Below are positions 9,739-46,125 of a stretch of 64,000 nucleotides of DNA, one piece after another; within the stretch, counting starts at the first letter, position 1; every line of letters starts with the position of its first letter. The stretch comes from Calliopum simillimum (taxonomy: Eukaryota > Arthropoda > Insecta > Diptera > Lauxaniidae). The notes beneath the pieces were generated by a model that saw only the letters and a program-made list of their open reading frames with translations, was not told the DNA's origin and did no database searches. The translations under genes and the position numbers were made by a program. Where the stretch lies: positions 84,178,909 through 84,242,908 of the forward strand of contig OX638368.1 of assembly GCA_951812925.1 (NCBI GenBank), in the 5' to 3' direction.

Positions 9739-12700
9739 CTAAATGTCAACCTTGGCTTCCGAAAGAAACCGACAAATTGATATGAAAACGTCAATATTAT
9801 TAGACTTCAAAAGATCAATTACACTGTGGGTGCTGAAACCACAGCTGTGCACTACACTCAGCATTTGATTCCTCACTGACACATTTATATCAGGACAATG
9901 AAAAAGTAAATGCTGCGTTGACTGAACATCACCACATGAACAGACGTTACTGTTGATGATATTAATTCTATGAAGATGATCCTTACATCTGGTGTGATTA
10001 AACTTCATCCTATTTATAGTGGTAACAGTTTTACGCGGCAAACAGAGATTATTAAACCAAAAACGTTTATTAACAAGAGGTGCAACATGATAAAAAAATC
10101 GCCCAAACTCGGAAGAATTCCAACGAGACTGCCAAGCAGTAACCCCCACTGCTCTATCCGCAGATTTAACGTCCGTGAAGTTTACAGAAAGACTGGATGC
10201 TGCCAGCCCTGGAGGATGCTCTGAAGCAACTCGATCAACAAACTCATTACCCTCTATACCCATATGACTAGGCACCCAAAGAAAATGAATCTGCTTCCCC
10301 CTACTTCTAGACTCAAACAAAAGCGATCTAATTTTAAGAATAAACGGATGCGTTTTGTTGCTGCATACACTAGCAATAGCCGTAAGTACAGATTTACTGT
10401 CAGAAACAATGAGAAATTTAGATGTATCCTGCAAAGAAATCAGTTTGATTGCTTCAACAATTGCAAGGGCTTCAGCTGAGTAAACAGAAGAAAAAGCATT
10501 AAGAGGAAAGTACGCCTCGATATTAATATCAGGCAACCACACTCCGCAACCAACAGATAAATCAGTCTTCGATCCGTCCGTGAAAACTCTTTTAAAGTCA
10601 CTCCGACGAGCCAAAAACGAGTTAAATCTGTCAGAGACCTCCCTCACTGTGGTTAAAGATTTATTTACATTAAGAAACCTTACAACAGGCTTCAGCACTA
10701 ACGCCTCAAAAGGAGTCTGAAAAATAGGGTGCATATTAAAGGTTGTAAAGGTCAGATTTTGAGACTTTTGCCTTAACCTTTGATAAAAAAGAGGTATATT
10801 AGAAAATGTCAAAATTTCGGAAATAAAAAGCCTAGCTGGATGATCATTGATAGATAAAATTTTGTTAATAACACCTTCAGCTAAGAAGTTAAAACGTTCC
10901 ACTAAGGGCATGACATTACTCATTTGTTCCATACTAAGCGTATGAGTGGAAATCATGGCACCAAGTGAAATACGAAGTGCCTTCCACTGCACACGCTGCA
11001 ACTTTAACATATCTTTCTTTGAACATCCCAAAAGCAAAGGAGCCATATACTCCAATTTCGGCCTAATTAAACCAATATAGAGGCGGATCAGACACTGGGG
11101 GTCAGAACCCCACGTTACCCCACAAAGAGAGCGCAAAACATTCGTGAAGTGAAAACAACTACTAACTACACGATCCACTTGGTACCTTAAAACAAGTCTT
11201 TTGTGAAATGTGAACCCCAAAAAATTAAACGTGTTAACATATTCCAAGCTACTAGCTCCCAACAGCAGTGGCATAACAGAAACCGTATTTTTTTTTGTGA
11301 AAATCATAGCTTTAGTTTTGTTCAATGACAACTCTAATTGCAACTGCAAGAGTCTATCCCTAATTGACGAGATAGCATATTGAACTCTTGCCCTGGCCTG
11401 ATCAGCATCAGGATCTGAACTGAAAACAACAATGTCATCAGCATAACCCAAAATATGCACTTTCTCAAAATTCATATCAAAAATTTCATCAATGTAAATA
11501 TTAAAGCAAATAGGACTTAAAACACAGCCTTGCGGCACTCCTGTAAAGGAATGTCTATTAACAAATCCGTCATCACATTGTATGTAAAGATCTTTAAACT
11601 GAAAAAGACAGTAGAAGAAGTCACAAAATTTGTTAGGAATACCCAACAAATTCAGCCTAGACCATAAAAGTCGAACATTGACATTGTCAAACGCCCCCTT
11701 TAAATCCAGAAAGACCGCAACTAGACTTTCTCTCTTAAGAAATGCAAGCTGTATAGCAGACCAAAGCGTAATAACATTATCGGAGGTGGACTTCCACTTC
11801 CTAAAGTCAGATTGACGAGCATTTATTTTCCCGCGCGATTCAAGAAACCACTCAAGCCTATTGCAGAGAATGCGCTCAAAAATTTCCCTGAGTGAAGCCG
11901 CAAGCGCTATGGAACGATAAGATGAAGCAGAAGCAGGTGGACAATTTTTCTTTTTAAGAGGCATTATTTTATACTGAAACCAGCAGTATGGAATAAAACC
12001 ACTGGCCAAGACTTCATTAAACATACCAAGTAACTTAAATTTGTGATCAGCGTTAAAAGACTTCAAATGTTGATTACGCAAACCGTCAATGCCAGGAGCC
12101 GTATTTTTCGAGCTCATTATTGCTTTATCCAATTCCGCATACGTAATTGGTACCAGCAAAAAATGATCATTTTGCTCCGCAAGAGGTGAAAAAAATTGAA
12201 AGGGACCAACTGGCCCCGCTAAGGCATCACAGAACCCGGATAAACATTCATTAAAACCTGACAAGCAACTCGAAAAATTCCCTTTAAAACAGCGGACCGT
12301 CTTCCACAGTTCAGAAACTGTCATATTGCTGTTTATACTTTCGCAGAAAGATTTCCAACCTCTTCTTTTTTCAACTCTCAACACATACTTATAATCTTTT
12401 TTGGCTTTCAAAAGCTCTTGATAATTTCTACTGGAGGGGCAAGATTTGAATCTGTTTAAAGCCAGTTTCAAAACAGCGCTGATCCTCCTGCAAGCTTCGT
12501 TCCACCAGGGATTCGGGTTTCTCATTTTACTTTTTGTTTTGACCTTAAAGGTGTCATGAAAGACTTGTGCAAAAGTATCAAAATCACTGTCAGAAGACGG
12601 AGAGTTAAATTGAGGAGACGCAAAAACTTCATATAGTTTTTTGTTGAGAAAGCTTTTTTCAATACACTTAGGGATGATGTGCTTAGCAAAACTTTTCAAA

Positions 12701-13365
12701 GTAGGCGCAGAGGCAAGCGTAATTTCAATGACACAATGAGTACTTCCAAGTGTGACATTAGTGGTTTTCCAAGAGGAGTTTAACCCTACATTTCCTGAAC
12801 AGAAGGTCAGATCAAGACAAGAAACAGTTAGTCCAAAATGAGTTGGCTCACCAGTATTAAGTAACATTAAGTTATTATCTTCAATAAAGTCTAAGACTTT
12901 CCTGCCCCTAGAGTCCGTGGAGACACTGCCCCAGCACACATTGTGAGCATTAAAGTCGCCGCAAATCAGAAGGGAGGAATATGAAATACTATTTATAATA
13001 CTGTTTAAATGAGTAACAGAAATATTACAATTAGGTGGTATGTAAAAAGATAGAACAGTAAGAACTCCATTATTTGTAACAATTTCGCAGCCACAAACTT
13101 CAATGGACTCAGATGAAGAAACCACATTTAGTACTTTAAATTGAAAAGTTTTATCAACAACAATGGCTACGCCCCCGCCACGGTTAGAGTGAGAAGGACG
13201 ATCTGCTCTAACAACATCAAAATTCTTAAAACACAAAACATCAGAAGGCAAAAGAAAAGTTTCGGAAAGGCAACCTATAGAAACCTTACTATCCAAAAAA
13301 TACTGCTCTAAAAGATCTTTCTTATTTCTGACACTAGTGCAATTGAACTGTGCTACTTTCATCAA
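9739..13365 (-). CDS. LINE ORF2: endonuclease, reverse transcriptase, RNase H
   Basis: An uninterrupted 1208-codon frame starting MMKVAQFNCTSVRNKK. Domains in order: AP-type endonuclease (about residues 1-225) with SETFL near 35 and GDFNAH near 136; reverse transcriptase (about 420-700) with motif A FLDLKGAFDNV, the PQGCVLSP motif and catalytic YADD near 640; RNase H (about 925-1055) with FTDGSK near 929, SAEALAI, SDSK and WVPSHMGIEGNE; then a C-terminal Cys/His knuckle (CSCGDVQSTQHLLFHC). RNase H after RT is typical of the I group. It overlaps the end of ORF1 by about 32 bases, so translation probably depends on reinitiation. All catalytic residues I can check are present; this copy may be, or recently have been, active. 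Confidence 0.95.
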   Translation of the reverse strand: MMKVAQFNCTSVRNKKDLLEQYFLDSKVSIGCLSETFLLPSDVLCFKNFDVVRADRPSHSNRGGGVAIVVDKTFQFKVLNVVSSSESIEVCGCEIVTNNGVLTVLSFYIPPNCNISVTHLNSIINSISYSSLLICGDFNAHNVCWGSVSTDSRGRKVLDFIEDNNLMLLNTGEPTHFGLTVSCLDLTFCSGNVGLNSSWKTTNVTLGSTHCVIEITLASAPTLKSFAKHIIPKCIEKSFLNKKLYEVFASPQFNSPSSDSDFDTFAQVFHDTFKVKTKSKMRNPNPWWNEACRRISAVLKLALNRFKSCPSSRNYQELLKAKKDYKYVLRVEKRRGWKSFCESINSNMTVSELWKTVRCFKGNFSSCLSGFNECLSGFCDALAGPVGPFQFFSPLAEQNDHFLLVPITYAELDKAIMSSKNTAPGIDGLRNQHLKSFNADHKFKLLGMFNEVLASGFIPYCWFQYKIMPLKKKNCPPASASSYRSIALAASLREIFERILCNRLEWFLESRGKINARQSDFRKWKSTSDNVITLWSAIQLAFLKRESLVAVFLDLKGAFDNVNVRLLWSRLNLLGIPNKFCDFFYCLFQFKDLYIQCDDGFVNRHSFTGVPQGCVLSPICFNIYIDEIFDMNFEKVHILGYADDIVVFSSDPDADQARARVQYAISSIRDRLLQLQLELSLNKTKAMIFTKKNTVSVMPLLLGASSLEYVNTFNFLGFTFHKRLVLRYQVDRVVSSCFHFTNVLRSLCGVTWGSDPQCLIRLYIGLIRPKLEYMAPLLLGCSKKDMLKLQRVQWKALRISLGAMISTHTLSMEQMSNVMPLVERFNFLAEGVINKILSINDHPARLFISEILTFSNIPLFYQRLRQKSQNLTFTTFNMHPIFQTPFEALVLKPVVRFLNVNKSLTTVREVSDRFNSFLARRSDFKRVFTDGSKTDLSVGCGVWLPDINIEAYFPLNAFSSVYSAEALAIVEAIKLISLQDTSKFLIVSDSKSVLTAIASVCSNKTHPFILKIRSLLFESRSRGKQIHFLWVPSHMGIEGNEFVDRVASEHPPGLAASSLSVNFTDVKSADRAVGVTAWQSRWNSSEFGRFFYHVAPLVNKRFWFNNLCLPRKTVTTINRMKFNHTRCKDHLHRINIINSNVCSCGDVQSTQHLLFHCPDINVSVRNQMLSVVHSCGFSTHSVIDLLKSNNIDVFISICRFLSEAKVDI

Positions 13366-14591
13366 TATGATTGATGTTACTTAAGATAGCACTAAATAAA
13401 GGTTTCAAGTTGCCCAAGCGTGCATCCACAGAAGAATTACCTTCCACACCCAGCGAATTAACAATAGCCTCAAAAAAAGGCTTAACCTGTTTTACTAGCT
13501 CAGTGCTAGAATTGCTTAATTGTACATTAATGACTGATTCAATATCAGCAACTTCTGAAGCCTTTGCAGCATGAGCCACGCTACTAGCTTCAGCCTCCGC
13601 ACCTTCCTTAATCAACGAAACTTCAGAGTTACTTTCCTCCACACGTGGTCTTTTGGCAGGCACAACTGCCCTTTGACCAGAACCCACAGAGCGGCGCGAG
13701 GCCCCCAGGAGAGGAAACTCCAATGCGCTAAAAGCATAATCCGCTTGAACATTATTAGAAATTACATTATTTTGACCTTTATTAAGAGGCACACGTGCAT
13801 GAGGATCTGCGTAAGATGCAGCAGAAAATGTAACCATTTTTGGTTTAAGTAAATTGGCCTTTTCAATCTTTTCATTAAACAATTTTTTATACAACGGACA
13901 TGATTTAGAAGATGCCTGACCACACCCCACACAAAGATGACCACCACGCCTACAACCCCTTTCCGAATGACCATACCTCCAGCACTTTCTGCACTGAAGT
14001 ACATTCTCCCGGTAAGGATTGACAGGGAAGTTAACACCATCCACTGAGACGTGTGAAGGAAGCACCTGTCCCGAAAAACAAATCAAGACTGTATCAGACA
14101 CCACAAGAGCTCCAGACCTGGCAGCATCCCTTCTATTCAATCTCTTCACTTCTGAAATCTTGCAATTGGCAGACAATATACCATACTGAGCTGAGTTTTT
14201 ACCATAACCCCCTTTAAAAATCTCCTCCTCAGTATAAGCAATAGGAATAGGGACAACCCCCTTTACCTCACAAAGCTCGGACGGAATGAATGTATTATAT
14301 TGCTCGAGCAAATGCTCATCACTAGCAATGTCGTTGGCAGTCTTACAATTTTGAGCAACTACTTTCACTTTTTTTTTCGACAAAAAAAAAGACGTCAATT
14401 TTGTTGTATTTGCTATACAAATACTTCCCAATAGCCACAATATTTAGAGCGCTATCACTCTTGGATTGAATGATAACCTCAAATTCCCTTATAAAATTTG
14501 ACTCAACATAAAAGCGCGGGCGAGGAACCCTAACCTCACTGTTAACACCTGCAACAGCCTCACGCAAAATGCGATCAGGCGGGAACACCAT
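13334..14591 (-). pseudogene. LINE ORF1 (Gag-like, CCHC knuckles), one frameshift
   Basis: The nucleic-acid-binding first protein of the I-type LINE. The N-terminal part starts MVFPPDRILREAV at 14591. The frame changes at the homopolymer stretch around 14365-14392 (two runs of eight or more identical bases), after which the second frame runs open to 13334. The C-terminal part has three Cys-rich knuckles beginning CRKCWRYGHSERGC, then CVGCG, then an acidic Ser-rich tail. Only a one-base change separates the two frames, so a sequencing error in a homopolymer is as likely as a real mutation. About 418 residues if the frames are one gene. Confidence 0.85.
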
Positions 14592-26779: not shown

Positions 26780-26917
26780 CCCTGTGGGAAATTGGTCTAG
26801 TCCATCACTAAACAAAAACTATTTCCAAACAAGATAACACTAGTCCGCAACTGACTCGTTTCCCATACAACGAACTAATGATTTTTACATGGGCTTATCC
26901 TAGGAGCAAGTCAATTG

Positions 26918-27200
26918 TACCGCTCTGCATTCGGTGGAAGTAGTCGAAAAACAGTCTTTACAAAGCAGCTTGTAGCAATTATCTCGTTACGCATACGTTT
27001 GGAATAGTTTCATACCAACCATTTGAAATAAAATCGTATGAATTGTACAGCCCTGCATTCGGTGTAACTAGTCACAGAACAGTCTTTACAAAGCAGCCTA
27101 TAGCAATTATCTCGATACGCATTCGTTTGGAATAGTTTCAAACCAAACATTGCAAATAAAATCGTATGAATTGTACCGCCCTGCATTCAGTGTAACAAGT
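26918..27200. repeat. 127-bp tandem repeat near the left end of element I
   Basis: TGTACCGCTCTGCATTCGG, TGTACAGCCCTGCATTCGG and TGTACCGCCCTGCATTCAG start at about 26918, 27045 and 27172: two full units and a partial one. Each has GTAGTC or CTAGTC shortly after, like the right-end repeats of the same element. Confidence 0.8.
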
Positions 27201-27239
27201 TGTAAGCCAATCTTCATGAATGTACTAATTGTCATGATT

Positions 27240-27545
27240 GGGCTAGTTAAAAATTAAATTTCTATAACTAATAAACTATAAATCGTACGTAAACAATCAT
27301 GACAACTTTTCTCTTGCAAATTTTCTGAGCTAAAACTTGTGGCTAACAATTTTTCTGTAAAATTAACCGTTAGCAAGATATTTGCGAAATACTGCTTTTC
27401 GCAACCCTTGAGCCTGAATAACTTTATGCGCCAGTGACTTCGATGCCGGGTTTTTACCATTTGTTCTGAAACATCAAAATGATGCGATTCCAATTAAAAA
27501 ATTTATGGCTCCAAGTTTTTTTAATCATTGCAGTCCAATTTCAGT
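27240..27545. repeat. Single arm of a foldback-D-like sequence
   Basis: The phrases TTTTTCTGTAAAATTAACCG, GCAAGATATTTGCGAAA, CTTGAGCCTGAATAACTTTA and TATGCGCC follow the same order as 38640-38740 in the foldback at 37550-38861, but no mirrored arm follows. It lies just downstream of the accessory gene of element I. Confidence 0.55.
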
Positions 27546-27864
27546 GGACTATTAAACTTAGTTCGGCAACAATTTTGTATTTTTAGAAACTTAAAGTACG
27601 TTTTTCGTCTATCGCCCTTTCTGCATTAAACGATTCAGTTGAAAAAGTACAATTTAAATGAATAACGGCAAGTTTTGGAAAATTAGGACTTCATTGGTTT
27701 CGATTTTTTTATAACTTTTAATAAAAAACAATATTAGGATTAAAGTTCAGAGTTACATAACAATTCATAGTTTAGAACAATAAAAAAAGTTAAGTTATTT
27801 TCATATCAAATTTCTATCATATGATTAGAAAGATAAGTATAAAAGTTGTAATATTAATATATTT

Positions 27865-28850
27865 TTATGGTGTATCCTTATTTTTTGTACAAATTTGTCG
27901 AAAATGACGCTTTTTGACTTTTTGAAATGCTTTTCTAATTGCGTTTTCTTTTTCCGCATCTGGTATAGCATCTGAAGTATTTAAATTTATTTACTCTTTG
28001 AAAAACAATGATCTCAAGCGTCATAAGACTTACCCATGATTGCACTGTAAAGATTTTTAAAATCTTTTAGCCGTTTTTTTCCATGGGTGCCATCGCCGTT
28101 ATACATGATGACAACATCTCTATGAAGAATGTTCTCTAAATTCCTTGCAATTTTACCACCAAGTTTGTTTCTAATTGCTTTCACCTATTAATGAAAATAT
28201 TAAAAATTTACCTTAAAAAAATTTGATTTCTTTCTTACATAAATCTGTCGATTAAAGCATATAATTTGGTCTGCGTCCTGTAGTTCTTTTTCGTTGCACA
28301 ACGGGAAGTTTGCTCCTATGGCTCCTGCTTCATTTTCCTCGGAAACCAGTTTGGTAATTAGTCCCGTCTGCTTCGCCAGCGTTTCCAAAATTATTTTATT
28401 TTGATCTTCCATTTTAGCTTCAAACAAAAGAAACTAATTAGTGACAATAAAAAGTCACAAAAAAAGGAAAAAACTGTTGACCAGCCCTTAATTTGAATGA
28501 ATGATAATTTGGAAAGTAAGGACCCAATTAAATAAGTTGATGCCATTTAAAACAATATGCAATCTGAGTCAGAAAAATGTGATGCACCCACGAAATTTCA
28601 ATCCTAGGTCGGCCAAGAAACTGCACTGCAAAAATGAATTGTACTGTTTCTTGGAAATGTACCATACAACATATTTCTGGTCAATAATTCTTTAATGATA
28701 TACGATTTTCGAAATACATTCTCGAGAACATACGTATACAATTTATAACTTACTTGTAAGCTCCTTGATGTCTTTTCTCAATTTTTTGCAGCCCTTACAG
28801 GAGTCTTCTTCGTTAAGGCGCACGATTTTTCTTGGTGGCAACGACGACAT
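27865..28850 (-). CDS. DUF4806-like accessory protein of element I, intact, four exons
   Basis: Exons on the minus strand: 28754-28850, 28239-28417, 28034-28184 and 27865-27971. Donors are GTAAGT, GTAAGA and GTAAGT, acceptors end in AG, and all phases join to give 177 residues with no defect. It starts MSSLPPRKIVRLNEEDSCKG, followed by a CKGC pair and a helical, probably coiled-coil stretch (about 20-65). The C-terminal half (NFPLCNEKELQ, AIRNKLGG, NILHRDVVIMYNG, HGKKRLKDFKNLY) follows the pattern I know from insect DUF4806 domains, and the tail is basic. Role unknown; position beside a transposase and the basic tail suggest a DNA-binding helper, as TnpA is in En/Spm. The intron set was inferred from sequence only. 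Confidence 0.7.
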
Positions 28851-28947
28851 AGTAATATTGAGTTCTCTTTTATATGTTATTTAAGTAATTTTAAGTTGCC
28901 TTAATGTAAGTAATAAGAAAATGTGTAAGTGGTGCTAAGGATTGGTT

Positions 28948-30807
28948 TTAGATTCGTCCGTGCAGCATTGGAATTAAAAGTAGTTTATCATTGTATGGAA
29001 GAGTAAATAATTTACAGTCAAGGAAACATAATTTAAAACTTTCTAAAAGTTGCAATGGAATAGAATCTACCAGAGATATCCCGAGATCAAGGGAATCAAT
29101 GGGTTCCTTGAAAAAGGGCTGAATGTTTCTTAATCGACGTCCGATGATGCATATACCAAATTCATCTTCCCGAAAAGAATCAATTTTTATTGGGATGTAT
29201 GGTTCAATCAAACAGTAATTATCAGGACTTGCCGTACCTAAAACATAATTTTTTACACTGAGAGTTGATTTATTTTTGTTAATACATTTTATTTCTATAG
29301 GCTCCAATCTTCGTATGAAGTTAATGTTCATGACTGCATGTGAAATTTGTTCTAAAATTTTTGATGGCTTTTTAACATATTTTTTAAATATTTGTAGAAA
29401 ATGTTCAAAAGGATACGCTGAAAAGTTTATAAGGGGTCCGAAATTTTGAACACATTCCGCCAAATGCAAAAGCCCATGAATGTTGTAAGACACACTGTTA
29501 CGTCCAAAAATTGTAGGAAAATTAAATACAAATACCTCAATCATTTTATTGGCGATATCAATATTTTTCAAATAGTTTTTAGGACAACTTAGCAATCTAA
29601 CGGAGCAATGGAGTAGTAAAAATTCATAATACAAGTCATCTTCAATGTTATCTCTTAAAACTAAGGGGCCAATGTAAAATTAAAAGCAACGAAACTCAGT
29701 TGCTTTCCAATACGCAATTTCTTCCAATCCTCTCGGCTTACGTTGAAATTCTTGGGGTACAAGATTGCTCAATGATTTCAATTGCTTCGATATATTGTCT
29801 TTGCTGTCCTGGTCAATATTGTTAACTAATTTATTTTTCCAAATTCTCTTTAAAAATTTTCGCATTACGCCTAAATCTACTAAATGCATAGGATCTAAGG
29901 GAACCTGAGTCACCATATTTAAACCTAGCTTTCGAAAGGCGACTTTTCTTTATAAAATTTCTTTTTATGGTGTAATAAATATTTTCTTTCATTGAAATCT
30001 GTGTCAGAAAGAAGGATGCCTGATGTCGTACTATAAGTTAGGGACTTGTTTATTTTTTTAGCTACTTGTGTGCATTTTATACATCCATGTGACGATGTAT
30101 GCGATACTGTGCCACATGTAAAAGCCCTAGCTGGTGCATCACAAATAAGAGCCCTAACTTTGAAAGGAATATTTATTTCGTCTATTTTTACACCGTTATC
30201 TAAAAAGTGTTTTATTTCTTCAACGAAATTTGCCAAATAATCTGCACTGTTCTCAAGTTTTTTTCTTCCTAAGTATACACCAACAGGTATAACTGATATA
30301 TTAGGCATGTTAACTATTTTAATTAATATTGGCCAAAGCTGCACACTTGAGCTTTTATATAATGGTACTCCGTCGATATTAATGTCAATAACTATTTCGT
30401 TACTGGTCGAAATAACATTTTTAATTTTTAAAAACTGCTTAGCTAATCCAAAATAGCAGAATGTGCCAGGAGAAACTGGTTTTATAGCAAATTTTTCTTT
30501 TTCTGGTAAAAGGGAGCTAAGGGACAGAGGAACGTCATGTTTTTCGTCTTTTAATATTCTCAAATCTCTCAGTTTTTCTTTTAGAGTTAATTTTAAGTTA
30601 TCGGTATTTATATTTAAAATTATGTCGTCGTTATTTTCCTCATGACAAGCATGCGATGTGTTTGCTCTCATATTTTCATTTTCACTGTCGCCACTGTTTT
30701 CACTTAAATTTTCTTCAACTTCTTTCGTGTAAAGTTTTGTAAGAAGTTCTTCTTTTTTCCTTTTAATAATCCTTCGAAGGTTGAACTTAAGCCTCTTTTC
30801 GACATTT
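28948..30807 (-). pseudogene. TNP2/DUF4218-like transposase of element I, damaged
   Basis: About 600 codons. The N-terminal part (basic FNLRRIIKRKKEELL) is followed by a region with INIDGVPLYKSSSVQLWPIL, PVGVYLGRKK, ICDAPARAFTCGT and HTSSHGCIKC, the order seen in TNP2-type transposases, then VPLDPMHLVDLGVMRKFL, RKPRGLEEIAYWKATEFR and a DUF4218-like part (YNIHGLLHLAEC, FSAYPFEHFLQIFKKYVKKP). Defects: a likely one-base shift near the start (about 30795), another near 29935 between the KSPF and RKLGLNM frames, and one in-frame TAA after EFRCF near 29676. These are few, so the copy is fairly young. Family placement rests on motif order, not on a database search. Confidence 0.7.
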
Positions 30808-31003
30808 TTTTTTTTTTTGTTCTTTTAAACTAAAATGCACCTTCACTTTCACAGCTTGCACTTGTAAAGTAAACTTTATAACTGAAAATCAAAACATATT
30901 TAGAAATTTGACAAATCAATAATTTCAAAAGTTACAAAGTTTTCAAAATTTTTTTTTTTTTTTTATCAAATAGAAAAATTCTAAATTTTATGGCAACTTT
31001 CCT

Positions 31004-31160
31004 TTTACACATTCGCTTGGAGTATATTAAAGTGACTTCTACATTCGCTTGGAGTAGTTGCGAGTGTATTGTCTGTTTTAGTTTATAATGAGTTTAGTGG
31101 GAGAACGCACGAACTAGTCTTTACCTGCATTCGCTTGGAGTAGTTTCGGATGAGTTCGTG
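31004..31160. repeat. Subterminal repeats at the right end of element I
   Basis: CATTCGCTTGGAGTA occurs three times (about 31010, 31042 and 31128), each followed by an AGTT or TATT variant. The left-end array has the related GCATTCGGTGGAAGTAG. Confidence 0.75.
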
Positions 31161-31233
31161 AAAGGCTAGGGATAGTGAAAAACTAGTTTTGAGTTAGAAC
31201 GTTTTGCGAACTAACTCGCTTCTTCCGACAGGG

Positions 31234-38861: not shown

Positions 38862-41800
38862 TTTAATAAAAATAAGAAACAATTCAAATTATAAAATACA
38901 CTAAATAAAGATAACAAACTGTAATAATTATATACTTATATTGAAGAATGGTAGGTGACATTGTATGTATAAAAAATACAGTATTTAATGCCACGTCGAT
39001 GAAAGATAATTTCATTAAAAGATTAAAATGACCAAAAATAGAATAACTTTAATTAAGTGTCGTAGGTGTAGAGAATTGAAAAATATGGAGAAAACGTGAA
39101 AAAAAGGAAATAAAAATATTTAAAAAGAAAGTTACAAAATTATGGAAAATTTATAGATTTAATTTAAAATTTAAAAGTGCAACAAAAGCAAAAAATAAAA
39201 ATCTAAGTGAATTAATAATAACGTATGGAAAGCAAACAAATATATCATAAAAAACCTCAAACAAAGCCTTGATCTACTCAATGGGAAAAATCAAATACAG
39301 GGACGCAGCAAAACTTCAATTTCAGCTAAATCAAAACCAAGCAGCCATGACTTGACTTGACTTAGAAACGTCGTTAAGATACGAAGCATTTTCAAAGATT
39401 CCGGAAGTTTATTGAAAAGCCTACAAGAAATAATATGAAAGGAATTGCGGTAACCTGTTGTCCGAAATGTTAAGACATTCACAGTATGACCATATCGCAG
39501 AGAATATCTGTCAGATAGTCTGCTGCTCAGGTAACCGCACCTCAAGAAAAAAACTTTAAGGACTTTATAATAAAAAAGGTGTCGAGTAGGAAGAATTTTA
39601 AGGGATCTAAACAGTTCCATCGAATGAGCAAAACGATTTCTGCTGCACATTTTTTTAATAATAGCTTTTTGCAAAATCAACAATGGTCTTGTTCTACTTT
39701 CATAAGCTCCACTCCAGCAAGAAATGCCGTAATTGAGTTTTGAATGAAATAGTCCAAAGTAAAAGGATTTTAAAACGCTTGCAGGACAGAGCTTCTTAAT
39801 ATTATAAAAATTTCTCACCACATTACGAAAATATATTTTGAGGCTATTTGTATGTTCATACCAATTAAAATTTTGGTCGATAGTGATTCCTAAATATTTA
39901 AAATGAGGTACAGTGTTAATCAAAAAGCAATCAGAGCTACATGCAGTATCAGGGTCGTAAGGAAGTGAATGAGAAGGGCATATTTTATATTTAAGACAAC
40001 ATGGATCATAAAAAATTATATCGTAGACAGGTTGAGTTTGCGATGTCAGGTTAAAATACATTAGTCTAGTTTTGCAGCTTATTAGTAGTTTATGTTGCAA
40101 AAACCATTTCCTCAGCACATCTACATCGTGGTTTATATAAACTGGCAAGTCAAGAAGCGAATTACAAATATAGCTTATACCCAAATCATCAGCGAACGCT
40201 GTTACTTTTCCTTTTAAATCTTGTTGAAAAACTGAATTTATGTATATAAGGAATAGGATAGGCCCAAGGACTGACCCTTGCGGAACACCTACATTAACCA
40301 TACCCTCACAACTAAGACTTGTACCAATTTTAACTTTATGAATTCGATTTGAAAGGTAAGATGCAAACCAATCAAACATGTGACCTCTAAAACCAATTGA
40401 ATGGAGTTTATTTAAAAGTATTTGGTGATCGACCATGTCAAATGCCTTATCTACAAAAAGACTAGCACAGAAATTTTTATCATCTAGACCTTTTTGAAGA
40501 TTAGAGCAAAAATTCAACAATGCATCTTCAGTAGACAAATTTTCCCTAAAACCAAATTGATTTGAACTAAAAAAATTTAGGCGAGTGAGAAAAGAAACAA
40601 CTCGTTTCTTAACTACTATTTCAAACACTTTAGCAATAGCAGGTAGCAAAGAGATTGGTCTATAATTACTCTTTTCATTGCGGTTACCCTTTTTGAAAAG
40701 AGGAGTAATTATGGCACTCTTGAACTGATCAGGAAAAACTCCTGTCAAAATACTTTTATTGAAAAGGTAGGCAAGAATATCTACAATATTATAAGCAACA
40801 TTTTTCAATAGGGCATTCGAAATGCCATCAATAGCACAAGATTTTGAATTATCCAGAGATTGAATAGTTTTTAGCAATTCCAATGCTGAAATATGTTCAA
40901 AAAAGAAACTACATGAAGACGTAATGTCTGATTTTAATGCTGGACAATCGCAAAAACTAGAGTGCAGTTCTATAAAAGGAAAAGAACCAATTGAGGCAAA
41001 ATATTGATTAAATATGTTAGCAATTGAAGTGCTATTAGAAATGGTATTGCCGTCATCAATTAAGCTGATAGGAGAAGAATATTTAGAAGATCTACCACAT
41101 AAATTATTTAAAAGTTGCCATTCTTTTCTTAAGTTACCTTGGCAGTTAGAAAATTCAGTTTGATAATAATTTTCACGAATTTTTGGAATTTCAATTTTAA
41201 TTTGTTTAGCTAAAATATCATGTCTAGTTTTTAATTGTGAATTATTGGGGTGCTTATAACATTTTAGTCTTAGCTTTTGCTTAAGTTTAATTTTTTTCAC
41301 AAGAACCGTGCTTATCCAAGGCTTGAGTTTTTTATCTTTAGAATGAAGAATTGGAACAGGATAGGTTGCATCATTAACAAAATTTTTGAGAATTTTTTCG
41401 AAATTGGAATACGCTGGAGACATATCACTGGCTCTGAATACACTGCTCCAGCCCTCAAAAAGTAGTTGCCTGTTCAGATCAACGTAGTTGATTTTTGTAA
41501 GAATTAAATGACTTGCTGAAGATTTAACTATTTTGACATTATTGATTATAAGGCCAGTCATACAGTGATCTGTTATACTTAAATCAATATTGATATTTTT
41601 AAATGGAACTACCGGACTAAGGAATCTCCCAAGTACATGGTCAAGACAGGATTGAGAAACGTGTCTAGTTGGTTCATTCAAAAACGAAAATAGACCGTGT
41701 TCAGCTAAAAGGGTGGTATAATAATCTACGTTTTCACAATCATTTAAGATGTCTAAATTAAAATCTCCTATTAGAAGTAAGTTGGTAGCATTTTCGTTCG

Positions 41801-42430
41801 CAAGAAAATAGCCAAGCTCATTCAAAAACTGACTTGCTGAATGAGAGTGCAGTCTATTAAAACAGACAAAAGTGAACAAAACCTTATTAATTTCGCAAGT
41901 TATCTTAATGACATCAGCAGTGCTGAAATGACACAAAGAAGAACAACAGTTAAAACCAGATTTTGCATAGACACAAACACCACCCGCACAATAGGTATCA
42001 TTGGGGATTGCAAAAAAATCATAACCTGGCATACTAAAATCATTCAATTCAGTAGAATAGATCCAAATTTCGGAGAGAAAAATAAAATCTGGAAATCTAT
42101 GAAAAGCATTTAAATTTGAAAGCAATAAGTTAAAGTTTTGCCTCATACTCCTTATATTTTGTTGTACAATAACAATAGAATTATCCGCATTGAGAGAAAA
42201 AGAAAAGTCCGAGATATCTCTAATAATATCTAAAGAAAAGTTGTTGTTTATAAGATCATCGTTCAAAATATCCATTGTTTACTAGTTTTTTTCTTTAATA
42301 GTTTTTACTTTTATTAGTTCGTTAAGTTCATCAAATGATCTAACAACAACCTTGTCTTTAGCTTTCTTCTTCAAAAGAATGCGACAGTCTTTATACCAGA
42401 CAAATTCAAAACTTTTGATCAAACTTTTGA
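38862..42430 (-). mobile_element. CR1/L2-group LINE, 5'-truncated in ORF1
   Basis: Minus strand. 42285-42420 encodes the end of ORF1 (FEFVWYKDCRILLKKK, then VVVRSFDELNEL and a stop), the pattern at the C-terminus of CR1/L2-type ORF1. ORF2 follows (39291-42275). The 3' UTR of about 400 bp is AT-rich. The 3' end abuts foldback D and the 5' end lies beside foldback E. I did not find a target duplication. Confidence 0.75.
39291..42275 (-). CDS. LINE ORF2: endonuclease and reverse transcriptase
   Basis: An open 994-codon frame from MDILNDDLINNNF. The endonuclease (about 35-250) has VVQQNIRSM, FLSEIW near 68 and LIGDFNLDIL near 170, and ends with SITDH. The RT (about 510-760) has FKSAIITPLFKKG, NYRPISLLPAIAKVFE, NQFGFRENLSTEDAL, PQGSVLGPILFLIYIN and the catalytic box AFADDLGIS near 692. 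Motif A reads SLFVDKAFDMVDH, two residues shorter than the usual FVDLSKAFD spacing. There is no RNase H; the C-terminus has the CR1-like FHIISCRLFNKLPESL. The frame is otherwise intact, so the short motif A may be the only block to activity. Confidence 0.92.
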   Translation of the reverse strand: MDILNDDLINNNFSLDIIRDISDFSFSLNADNSIVIVQQNIRSMRQNFNLLLSNLNAFHRFPDFIFLSEIWIYSTELNDFSMPGYDFFAIPNDTYCAGGVCVYAKSGFNCCSSLCHFSTADVIKITCEINKVLFTFVCFNRLHSHSASQFLNELGYFLANENATNLLLIGDFNLDILNDCENVDYYTTLLAEHGLFSFLNEPTRHVSQSCLDHVLGRFLSPVVPFKNINIDLSITDHCMTGLIINNVKIVKSSASHLILTKINYVDLNRQLLFEGWSSVFRASDMSPAYSNFEKILKNFVNDATYPVPILHSKDKKLKPWISTVLVKKIKLKQKLRLKCYKHPNNSQLKTRHDILAKQIKIEIPKIRENYYQTEFSNCQGNLRKEWQLLNNLCGRSSKYSSPISLIDDGNTISNSTSIANIFNQYFASIGSFPFIELHSSFCDCPALKSDITSSCSFFFEHISALELLKTIQSLDNSKSCAIDGISNALLKNVAYNIVDILAYLFNKSILTGVFPDQFKSAIITPLFKKGNRNEKSNYRPISLLPAIAKVFEIVVKKRVVSFLTRLNFFSSNQFGFRENLSTEDALLNFCSNLQKGLDDKNFCASLFVDKAFDMVDHQILLNKLHSIGFRGHMFDWFASYLSNRIHKVKIGTSLSCEGMVNVGVPQGSVLGPILFLIYINSVFQQDLKGKVTAFADDLGISYICNSLLDLPVYINHDVDVLRKWFLQHKLLISCKTRLMYFNLTSQTQPVYDIIFYDPCCLKYKICPSHSLPYDPDTACSSDCFLINTVPHFKYLGITIDQNFNWYEHTNSLKIYFRNVVRNFYNIKKLCPASVLKSFYFGLFHSKLNYGISCWSGAYESRTRPLLILQKAIIKKMCSRNRFAHSMELFRSLKILPTRHLFYYKVLKVFFLRCGYLSSRLSDRYSLRYGHTVNVLTFRTTGYRNSFHIISCRLFNKLPESLKMLRILTTFLSQVKSWLLGFDLAEIEVLLRPCI

Positions 42431-43140: not shown

Positions 43141-43462
43141 CCCGATCAAGAAAATGAAGGCGGCGGATATCGGTAGATGTCGGTCCGATATCGTTTTTGT
43201 GTCGGCGGCCGGACTTGGCGGCATCGGAGAGCGGTAGCATCGCGGGCCGCTTTTCGATTAGCCGAACTGCGCAAACGTGGTTGAACCCGTCATCGGGCCG
43301 ATAAATATTAGAGATTAACGGGCCGATATTCGCTAGCTGACAAAGGGCCGAATGCGGCTACATCTTGGATGCGCCGAACTGCGCGAACGCCAGAAATAAT
43401 AATGTCAATCACACTTGAAACGTGACATGGAAATTAATTAATTTAACCGCATGTGATACGAA
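43141..43462 (+). repeat. 322-bp left terminal segment, duplicated at 44785-45106
   Basis: The two copies are the same length and I count three mismatches. Outside this segment the neighbours differ completely. It carries the terminal repeat and several CGGGCCGATA-type motifs. Confidence 0.92.
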
Positions 43463-43470
43463 TTCCACAA

Positions 43471-44783
43471 TGAGTTATCAAGGCAACGCCGAAAGAATAA
43501 GACGATGTCGGCAGAGGCAACACGAATTGGATTTAATTCAGAGACAAGCACTTCAGGATATCGCAAATTTGGACAATGAAAGTAATATAACCATTATTAA
43601 TAAAAAAAATTATAATTTGCGTAGCTATGTAATTCGCTGTATTCCTGGCCAATTTGAAATGCATGTTTCACGTTGCCCTGGAAAGATGGAAAAATTTTCG
43701 CTACTCCGATGTAAATTATTTATTGTATACCTATAACACTTGCACATCTATTGCATTGAAGGGCACGAGCAAGAGGAGCAAGGGCACGAGCAAGAGGAGC
43801 AAGGGCACGAGCAAGAGGAGCAAGGGTACGAGCAAGAGGAGCAAGGGCAAGAGCAAGTGCCTCCGCAACCGAATTTAGTGAATGATGTAGTCATGCGTGG
43901 CGAAAATCAGAGTATGTATATAATTATGAAAATTCAAACTCATATCTAGAGAGGATTCATTACTACTCAATTATGAATTTAACTTTGAAGGACCCGATGA
44001 TAACATGGAAGTTGACAGAAATTCAGATGATTCGGATGTCGGTGCTGAAAGTGAAAGCCACCATTCTGATGAGGATAATGCGGATGGTGACGATGATACC
44101 GAGAGTTATTATAGCTATAATGACGATGATATTGATGATCTACATAACGATGATTTAGATCCAATTGTCGAGGATCCAGTAATATATGAAGACAATGAGA
44201 ATTTGGATCTAGCCGAGGAATTGAAAATTGGGCCTACGATGGCAATATACCATTAATGCAGGTATCAAAATTGTTATTGGTGCTTAGGCGTCATGGACAT
44301 CCTGAATTGCCAAAAACTGCAGCTACCTTGATGAAAACTAAGCACAATTTTGAAATAATTACCATTGACGGCACATTTGGTAGTAAATCGCAATTTGTTT
44401 ACTTTGGGGTTGAGAGGGGCTTACAAATGTGTGTAAATCCTGAACTGCATTTGGACCGAATAGTATCCCTAGTTTTTCATGTAGACGGGGCAAAAATGTA
44501 CAGATCGAATTTCAATCAATTTTGGCCTATTTTGTGTATGGTTTTTCATGAATGTAATGTTTATAAACCATTTCCGGTATGCATTTACATGGGAACTACA
44601 AAGCCTGATCCACACATTTTATTCACCGATTTTCTACGTGAAATGCGAACGTTATTGGATGAAGGCATGGAATTGAACGGGATGATATTTCGAGTAAGAA
44701 TAAAATGTTGGACTGCAGATACTCCTGCAAGGGCTTTGATAAAATGTGTCAAGGGACATACAGGATTTGATTCGTGCGAAAGA
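43471..44783 (+). pseudogene. TNP2-like transposase of element II, truncated
   Basis: N-terminal exon from ATG 43471 (MSYQGNAERIRRCRQRQHEL), then a heptad repeat region (EQEEQGH units, 43758-43860), an apparent intron near 43910-43970 and a long acidic stretch (44005-44220). A one-base frame change near 44230 leads into NWAYDGNIPLMQVSKLLLVL, then FHVDGAKMYRSNFNQFWPIL, FPVCIYMGTTKPDPH, TADTPARALIKCVKGHTGF and a broken CER, where the 5'-end copy begins. The motif order matches the transposase of element I (IDGVPLYKSS, WPIL, DAPARAF, HTSSHGC). The catalytic core C-terminal half and the DUF4218-like part are missing. Dead as it stands. Confidence 0.7.
43758..43862 (+). repeat. 21-bp coding minisatellite
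   Basis: GGGCACGAGCAAGAGGAGCAA is repeated about four and a half times with one or two changes, coding for heptads of Gly-His-Glu-Gln-Glu-Glu-Gln. It lies in the transposase N-terminal region of element II. Confidence 0.9.
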
Positions 44784-45106
44784 TCCCGATCAAGAAAATG
44801 AAGGCGGCGGATATCGGTAGATGTCGGTCCGATATCGTTTTTGTGTCGGCGGCCGGACTTGGCGGCATCGGAGAGCGGTAGCATCTCGGGCCGCTTTTCG
44901 ATTAGCCGAACTGCGCAAACGTGGTTGAACCCGTCATCGGGCCGATAAATATTAGAGATTAACGGGCCGATATTCGCTAGCTGACAAAGGGCCGAATGCG
45001 GCTTCATCTTGGATGCGCCGAACTGCGCGAACGCCAGAAATAATAATGTCACTCACACTTGAAACGTGACATGGAAATTAATTAATTTAACCGCATGTGA
45101 TACGAA

Positions 45107-45685
45107 GGAAAATTGTCAATGATGAAGAATCTTTAAAGCGATTGAAAAGTGGAAAAGAAAATGGTATGGAAAACAATAACCAAAAATTACATGAAAGACA
45201 ATAAATAATTCATTTAATTTTTTTTTAGCAAAAGATGGCCTGATGTCAAACAAAGAAAATGACAATGAAAAATTTGATTCGTGTGAGATCACGAAGGGAA
45301 AGAAGAATATTCTACGGGAAAATGTGATAAACGCGTTCAGAAAGTTAACAGATGCAGGTATTTTTTATTAATTCAAATATTTAATGTAAACAATAGAATG
45401 TTCTTGAAAATATATATTTTTTCTCCCTTTTCAGATAAATTGACGCTCATATACACTACTCAACTGGAGGAAAAAGCCCTTGCTTCCCAAAGACACCGGG
45501 AAATCCTGCAGGCCATCAACAACAGGCCTGATTTCAAGGAAGCTGCTGGAAGTAGCAGTTTTTCAAGTGAATGCTGCAAAGATGAGCTGAAAAATTATGA
45601 CTTCCAATTCCCAATGAAAACGTTGGAGGAATTTGAGAAATTCGAAACTACGGTAGCATCAAACCCGTCATTCCGAGCAGCTGTT
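45107..45685 (+). pseudogene. DUF4806-like accessory gene of element II, both ends lost
   Basis: Exons about 45107-45161 (RKIVNDEESLKRLKSGKEN), 45229-45357 and 45435-45685, with acceptors TTTTTTTAG and TTTTCAG and donors GTATGG, GTATTT and GTAAGT. The last exon has an amphipathic stretch (LEEKALASQRHREILQAI) and then FPMKTLEEFEKFETTVASNP and FRAAV, the start of a DUF4806 domain as I know it. The N-terminal KIV resembles PRKIVRLNEED in element I's accessory protein. The natural start is missing because the duplicated 5' terminus joins directly at 45106, and the C-terminal exon is absent or merges into the right-end repeats after 45828. Confidence 0.55.
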
Positions 45686-45844
45686 GTAAGTTTATCCAAT
45701 TTATCGTTCTTGTCTTCACACGAACCAACTGTTTGTACTTTCTTAATATAACAAAGTTGCACTTTATATTTTATATTTGTATTTTATATTGATAATTTGA
45801 TAATAAATTCATCTAAAATATTTTAGGTCGTTTTATATTTATTT

Positions 45845-46125
45845 TCAACCCTCGAATTTAATATCGGCAATGTAATTTCGGCCCGATATCGGCGATGCAT
45901 GTCGGCCCGATATCGGCGATGCATGTCGGCCCGATATCCCTATTTGGATATCGGGCCGATATTTATGTACAACATCGGTCCGCCATCATTTTTCGATGGC
46001 GGCCCGCTTTGAAAACATTTCAAATTGCTATCGGGTGGAGTGCGGTCGGATATCGGTTGCCGACATCCGCCGACTTCAAACCGATGGCATACCGACATCG
46101 GACCGCCTTCATTTTCTTGATCGGG
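45845..46125. repeat. Right-end repeat cluster of element II
   Basis: CGGCCCGATATCGGCGATGC occurs twice in tandem with a third partial copy (45880-45945), followed by inverted GATATCGGGCCGATAT and more CCGACATCCGCCGAC motifs up to the terminus. Subterminal repeat clusters of this type are transposase-binding regions in CACTA elements; that role here is inference. Confidence 0.8.

Follow-up and report, generated by a model that had tools for sequence, protein, structure and literature searches.

The stretch of DNA analysed here (the window), 64,000 nucleotides of the fly Calliopum simillimum (C1:84178909-84242908 of the 690-Mb assembly), contains at 26780-31233 a decayed copy of a mobile DNA element, in which a broken transposase gene is followed in the same direction by an intact accessory gene for a DUF4806 protein. 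The two genes share a history as parts of one element, as is evident from their recurrence in the same order and on the same strand beside distantly related transposases. The element is probably a cut-and-paste transposon of the CMC/RAG1-fold lineage with CCC..GGG ends, 2-bp target duplications and two proteins, of which the DUF4806 protein is the end-binding partner. The original prediction, made from the letters of the window, of a two-gene transposon in this interval is borne out by the ends, the duplications and both genes.

Structure of the element

The features of the element are as follows:
26780-31233, both genes on the minus strand: whole element, a DNA transposon of 4,454 bp with AA flanks on both sides and ends common to L031, L032/L033 and L034
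26780-26790, plus strand: terminal inverted repeat of the low-coordinate end, CCCTGTGGGAA
26913-27200, unstranded: subterminal array formed by a 128-bp tandem repeat (2.2 copies), with motif copies at 26927, 27055, 27119 and 27183
27865-27971, minus strand: accessory exon 4 and stop codon (splice sites, multi-copy alignment)
28034-28184, minus strand: accessory exon 3 with the DUF4806 core (Pfam, splice sites, multi-copy alignment)
28239-28417, minus strand: accessory exon 2 (splice sites, multi-copy alignment)
28754-28850, minus strand: accessory exon 1, with the ATG at 28850
28948-30824, minus strand: broken transposase gene of the CMC type with a RAG1-like core, in pieces 30824-29925, 29949-29680 and 29679-28948; open in the relatives L032 and L037
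31041-31144, unstranded: subterminal motif copies of the opposite end (31041, 31127), in the same orientation as the copies at 26927-27183
31223-31233, minus strand: terminal inverted repeat of the high-coordinate end, CCCTGTCGGAA on the minus strand

Searching the fly's own genome with the DNA of the element yielded 66 matching stretches. The termini of L031, L032/L033 (a single copy, interrupted by ~15 kb) and L034 lie at the same bases as those of the window copy, while the flanking DNA differs, which confirms the predicted ends. CCCTGTGGGAA and CCCTGTCGGAA are identical at 10 of the first 11 bases (terminus consensus CCCTGTsGGAA), and every family with ends found has CCC..GGG termini (CCCTGTsGGAA, CCCAGCAG, CCCGATCAAG) that differ in the following bases; that the ends are not of the CACTA type had been anticipated correctly. 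No ends were found for L056 and L057 by the same kind of search. The predicted 2-bp duplication is supported: the flanks are equal in 14/14 copies having both ends seen, against a chance agreement of ~8% for any one copy (our estimate from base composition), although for L055 flank equality was itself a condition of the end search. Among the closest copies, the flanks are AA (window, L031), TA (L032/L033) and TT (L034); in the sister family TA (L037) and AT (L038); in the 51% family TT (L051, L052); in the 41% family GT (L053), AA (L054) and TA (derivative L059); in the 39% family AA (L055) and AG (derivative L058); and TG at a second element of the window (43141-46125).

In the transposase gene, the motifs IDGVPLYKSS, WPIL, DAPARAF and PLDPMHLVDLG lie in the frames 30824-29925 and 29949-29680, followed by the frame 29679-28948. 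Compared by eye with L032, the window frame is disrupted by frameshifts and an in-frame deletion; it is open in L032 (635 amino acids) and L037 (634 amino acids). The proposed TNP2-like nature of this protein holds in part: it is related to TNP2, with the motifs and a DUF4218 match present, but the Pfam matches of the window pieces are weak (DUF4218, E=1.7e-5; DUF1258, E=1.3e-4; both under the Pfam cut-offs). The Transposase_21/tnp2 profile matches L032 at E=8.2e-5 and 22.3 bits, under the cut-off of 28.6, and is not listed for L037 in the Pfam search; among 30 relatives, it turns up in eight at E up to 1. By sequence, the TNP2 label is weak, and the wider CMC/RAG1-fold group is the clearer placement. 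The CMC signature D, D, C(2)C, H(3)H, E, as defined in the portion of PMC12730594 used here, is retained at D172 in 29 of the 30 relatives and at D250, C269, C272, H471, H475 and E495 in all 30. A RAG1/Transib-like RNase H fold was found for a relative of the window transposase, with 9-13% identity to RAG1 and Transib in the listed alignments. The closest relatives from named organisms belong to higher flies (Musca, Drosophila pseudoobscura, Rhagoletis and Bactrocera).

The accessory gene is, as predicted, an intact four-exon gene of 177 codons, interrupted by introns of 336, 54 and 62 bp, all three bounded by GT and AG; its spliced protein matches DUF4806 (PF16064) at 33.5 bits, above the cut-off of 25 (E 5.5e-8). 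Both genes match named families, the transposase weakly. The accessory gene lies downstream of the transposase in the same direction at a distance of 97 bp (28851-28947), rather than the 98 bp originally given. In the sister family, at ~70% identity, gene order, strand and splice sites are preserved; an eight-copy alignment places the exon borders at identical positions, with introns that have diverged or shortened. A TATA-like stretch directly upstream of the accessory ATG is visible by eye in both sister families. DUF4806 is reported to be a DNA-binding domain of the BEN type and has been classed as a structural subtype of BEN; the protein is predicted to combine a long N-terminal helix with a BEN-like domain.

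Association and conservation of the two genes

The PF16064 profile finds 25 matches in the genome, a list without the window accessory gene and its close copies, in which the domain is split by introns. Eleven of the 25 sit 667-1,829 bp downstream of a transposase match on the same strand, and none sits upstream or in opposite orientation; by chance, 0.0035 such cases would be expected, as computed with 65 of 75 transposase rows. The transposases concerned are distant relatives of that of the window. Five of the other 14 matches were inspected, and four (L058-L061) are non-autonomous deletion derivatives of these elements from which the transposase has largely or wholly disappeared: L058 still has an open DUF4806 frame with the transposase gone, and in L059, L060 and L061 the accessory gene, too, is missing its initial portion. 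Across the 11 adjacent and the five inspected matches, the accessory gene is not found mostly without the transposase at unrelated loci. DUF4806 sequence follows in 15 of 16 transposase-bearing loci inspected, the exception (L041) being decayed; this count is biased: L053-L057 were picked for a nearby DUF4806 match, the window and L031-L041 were found through DNA similarity to the whole element, and the transposase alone led only to L051 and L052. L035 and L036 are the converse case, in which pieces of the accessory gene remain and no match to the transposase is seen. Outside this genome, DUF4806 relatives are found in Teleopsis, Eurosta, Lucilia and Ceratitis, and the Eurosta gene model P0052 spans from the transposase into DUF4806. 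At L062 (C3:112135500-112139000), the fifth of the inspected matches, two tandem DUF4806-like genes are discernible by eye from the frames, with no transposase match in this stretch of 3.5 kb.

The ratio of non-synonymous to synonymous rates (dN/dS), which the original prediction had proposed to estimate, is 0.07-0.14 for the accessory gene between the sister families, at a dS of 1.5-3, so that its absolute value is not reliable; for the transposase it is 0.175. As judged from these sequence comparisons between families, both genes are under purifying selection. At shorter distance, the window and L034 accessory genes differ at six synonymous and four non-synonymous positions, for which a simple Fisher test against equal rates gives P=0.007; for L032 against L034, P is 0.06. 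The accessory frame is unbroken over the compared columns in five of eight copies (window, L032, L034, L040 and, with an in-frame loss, L037) and broken in L031, L038 and L039. An intact accessory gene stands beside a broken transposase in the window, L034 and L040; both frames are open in L032; L037 combines an open transposase with an accessory gene open apart from its in-frame loss; both genes are broken in L031, L038 and L039; and an intact transposase beside a broken accessory gene occurs in none of the copies compared. The original prediction read the contrast in the window copy as recent decay or selection on the accessory gene. The transposase is, however, a 3.6x longer mutational target, and at 3-4 lesions per 1.9 kb, zero lesions in 0.53 kb are expected with a probability of 0.43-0.33; the contrast is not significant, and a special meaning of it is not established.

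The second element of the window (43141-46125, plus strand) has 23-bp perfect inverted repeats starting CCCGATCAAG and TG on both sides. Its transposase piece (44199-44801), truncated and of the CMC type, matches 119 of 128 proteins compared (best E 1.2e-38), and a piece at 45287-45751, in the same order and strand, matches DUF4806 weakly (E 0.0031, under the cut-off); a BLAST search with the latter piece yields nothing at E up to 1e-3. It is a very divergent relative with both genes in fragments. An additional copy of its left end is seen at 44785. Elsewhere in the window, the minus-strand open reading frames at 9739-13380 and 39291-42278, of 1,213 and 995 amino acids, resemble by eye proteins of retrotransposons without long terminal repeats.

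Subterminal repeats and the proposed role of the DUF4806 protein

The repeat arrays predicted at both ends of the element are recovered by one of two tests. An 18-base motif (<=4 mismatches) has six sites in one orientation, four at one end and two at the other, against maxima of five in 40 shuffles and two in internal DNA; the four sites at the low-coordinate end are partly the tandem repeat itself. In a stricter 10-mer test (1 mismatch), the window element reaches five against a shuffle maximum of seven. The same 10-mer test detects AACTAGTTTC 12 times in L037 and 12 times in its sister copy L038, AACCGGTTTA 13 times in L051, GAAGGCGCAA 20 times in L053 and AGGTAATGCA 10 times in L055, each array exceeding the maximum of 30 shuffles and internal DNA. 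Family-specific arrays together with a DNA-binding candidate are as predicted for a TnpA-like protein, and by analogy the DUF4806 protein likely has such a role at the subterminal repeats.

Transposition could then proceed in the following manner: the DUF4806 protein, probably in dimeric or oligomeric form, would bind the subterminal repeats specific to its family; in the bound state, it would join both ends and recruit or regulate the transposase; the D-D-E centre of the latter would then cut, and insertion would occur with a 2-bp stagger. In plant En/Spm, labour is split between TnpA and TnpD in the way proposed here.

Alternatively, the second protein may be a regulator or repressor that, bound to the subterminal repeats or to an internal promoter, keeps expression of the transposase or transposition itself in check without being required for the latter. 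Copies making a repressor could spread in the form of L058, with its open DUF4806 frame and lost transposase; in the derivatives L059, L060 and L061, the beginning of the accessory gene is gone as well, and joint conservation with the transposase across wide divergence suits a required partner at least equally. We regard this alternative as unlikely. The parts of PMC11075544, PMC7642931 and PMC13270666 considered count DUF4806 among the host genes of zebrafish, Hydra and an ambrosia beetle, which would fit captured host cargo, a passenger without a role in transposition. That is highly improbable given the same order and strand beside transposases only 36-51% identical to that of L032, the purifying selection indicated for the accessory gene, and the weak DUF4806 match behind a transposase piece in the more distant element of the same window. 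It is also rather unlikely that the element falls into an EnSpm- or Mirage-like group that Repbase already lists, with the second protein noted there. Animal CACTA elements with 2-bp duplications do exist (ENS1_Cis, in the section of PMC6004678 consulted), but they are given CAC..GTG ends there, and the portions of the open literature on DUF4806 that were covered, with Repbase outside the search, gave no tie to a transposon. The reading as a two-protein transposon with an end-binding DUF4806 partner is retained as the probable one.

Relation to known systems and implications

Plant CACTA/En-Spm elements encode the transposase TnpD, with its TNP2 domain, and the DNA-binding protein TnpA. The parallel to this pair drawn in the original prediction is upheld, with two genes and DUF4806 as the second: both systems have two proteins, one of them a DDE transposase that contains C(2)C and H(3)H, and both have terminal inverted repeats and, at either end, subterminal repeats, whereas the present element has CCC..GGG rather than CACTA ends, a 2-bp rather than 3-bp duplication and a DUF4806/BEN-like second protein. 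The element departs from EnSpm/CACTA proper in the absence of CACTA or CAC..GTG ends, the 2-bp instead of 3-bp duplication and the Transposase_21 score under its cut-off. Transib, distant in sequence as described above, makes 5-bp duplications and is not known to have such a partner gene.

The following comparisons draw on parts of the papers cited. The CMC/CMCT clade (PMC12730594) shares D-D-E with C(2)C and H(3-4)H, the RAG1/Transib-like fold and a duplication within 2-5 bp; it differs in its CA..TG ends, stated for "most cases", and in the DUF4806 gene present here. CNEST of Cryptococcus (PMC12810828) and ESTA (PMC12730594) likewise have a CMC-type transposase and a 2-bp duplication, but CNEST begins CACGG, and both are described with TA duplications, in contrast to AA, TT, TA, AT, GT, AG and TG here; on this count, the element does not match ESTA. 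Sly1-1 of Neurospora (PMC4592977), likewise of the CMC type, also carries a second gene, of unknown function, in a conserved arrangement; it differs in its length of 11.5 kb, in the divergent transcription described for the two genes in a relative, and in that the text consulted does not call the second gene DUF4806. The portions of the literature covered on BEN domains and transposons, insect DUF4218 transposases and CMC/EnSpm accessory proteins, Repbase not included, contained no such element.

Table 2 of PMC7642931, the part of that paper drawn on, lists 47 DUF4218 and 69 DUF4806 genes for Hydra viridissima and 13 and 54 for Hydra vulgaris; that both counts are high in the former is expected if the two domains belong to the same elements. 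Tentatively, one may envisage an old and widespread animal lineage of RAG1-fold transposons that uses two modules of the chromatin type, a separate BEN-type (DUF4806) end-binding protein and a BAH-like domain at the C-terminus of the transposase itself, in which case much of the animal DUF4806 family, including that of Hydra, the ambrosia beetle and the zebrafish sex chromosome, would be transposon-borne or transposon-derived and not made up of ordinary host genes. Genome papers that treat DUF4806 as host expansions may be counting transposon genes and, if the BAH-like C-terminus is real, the elements could read chromatin in target choice. For DUF4806 itself, the element provides a concrete setting and a likely job, and two-protein transposition of the TnpA/TnpD kind becomes testable in animals.
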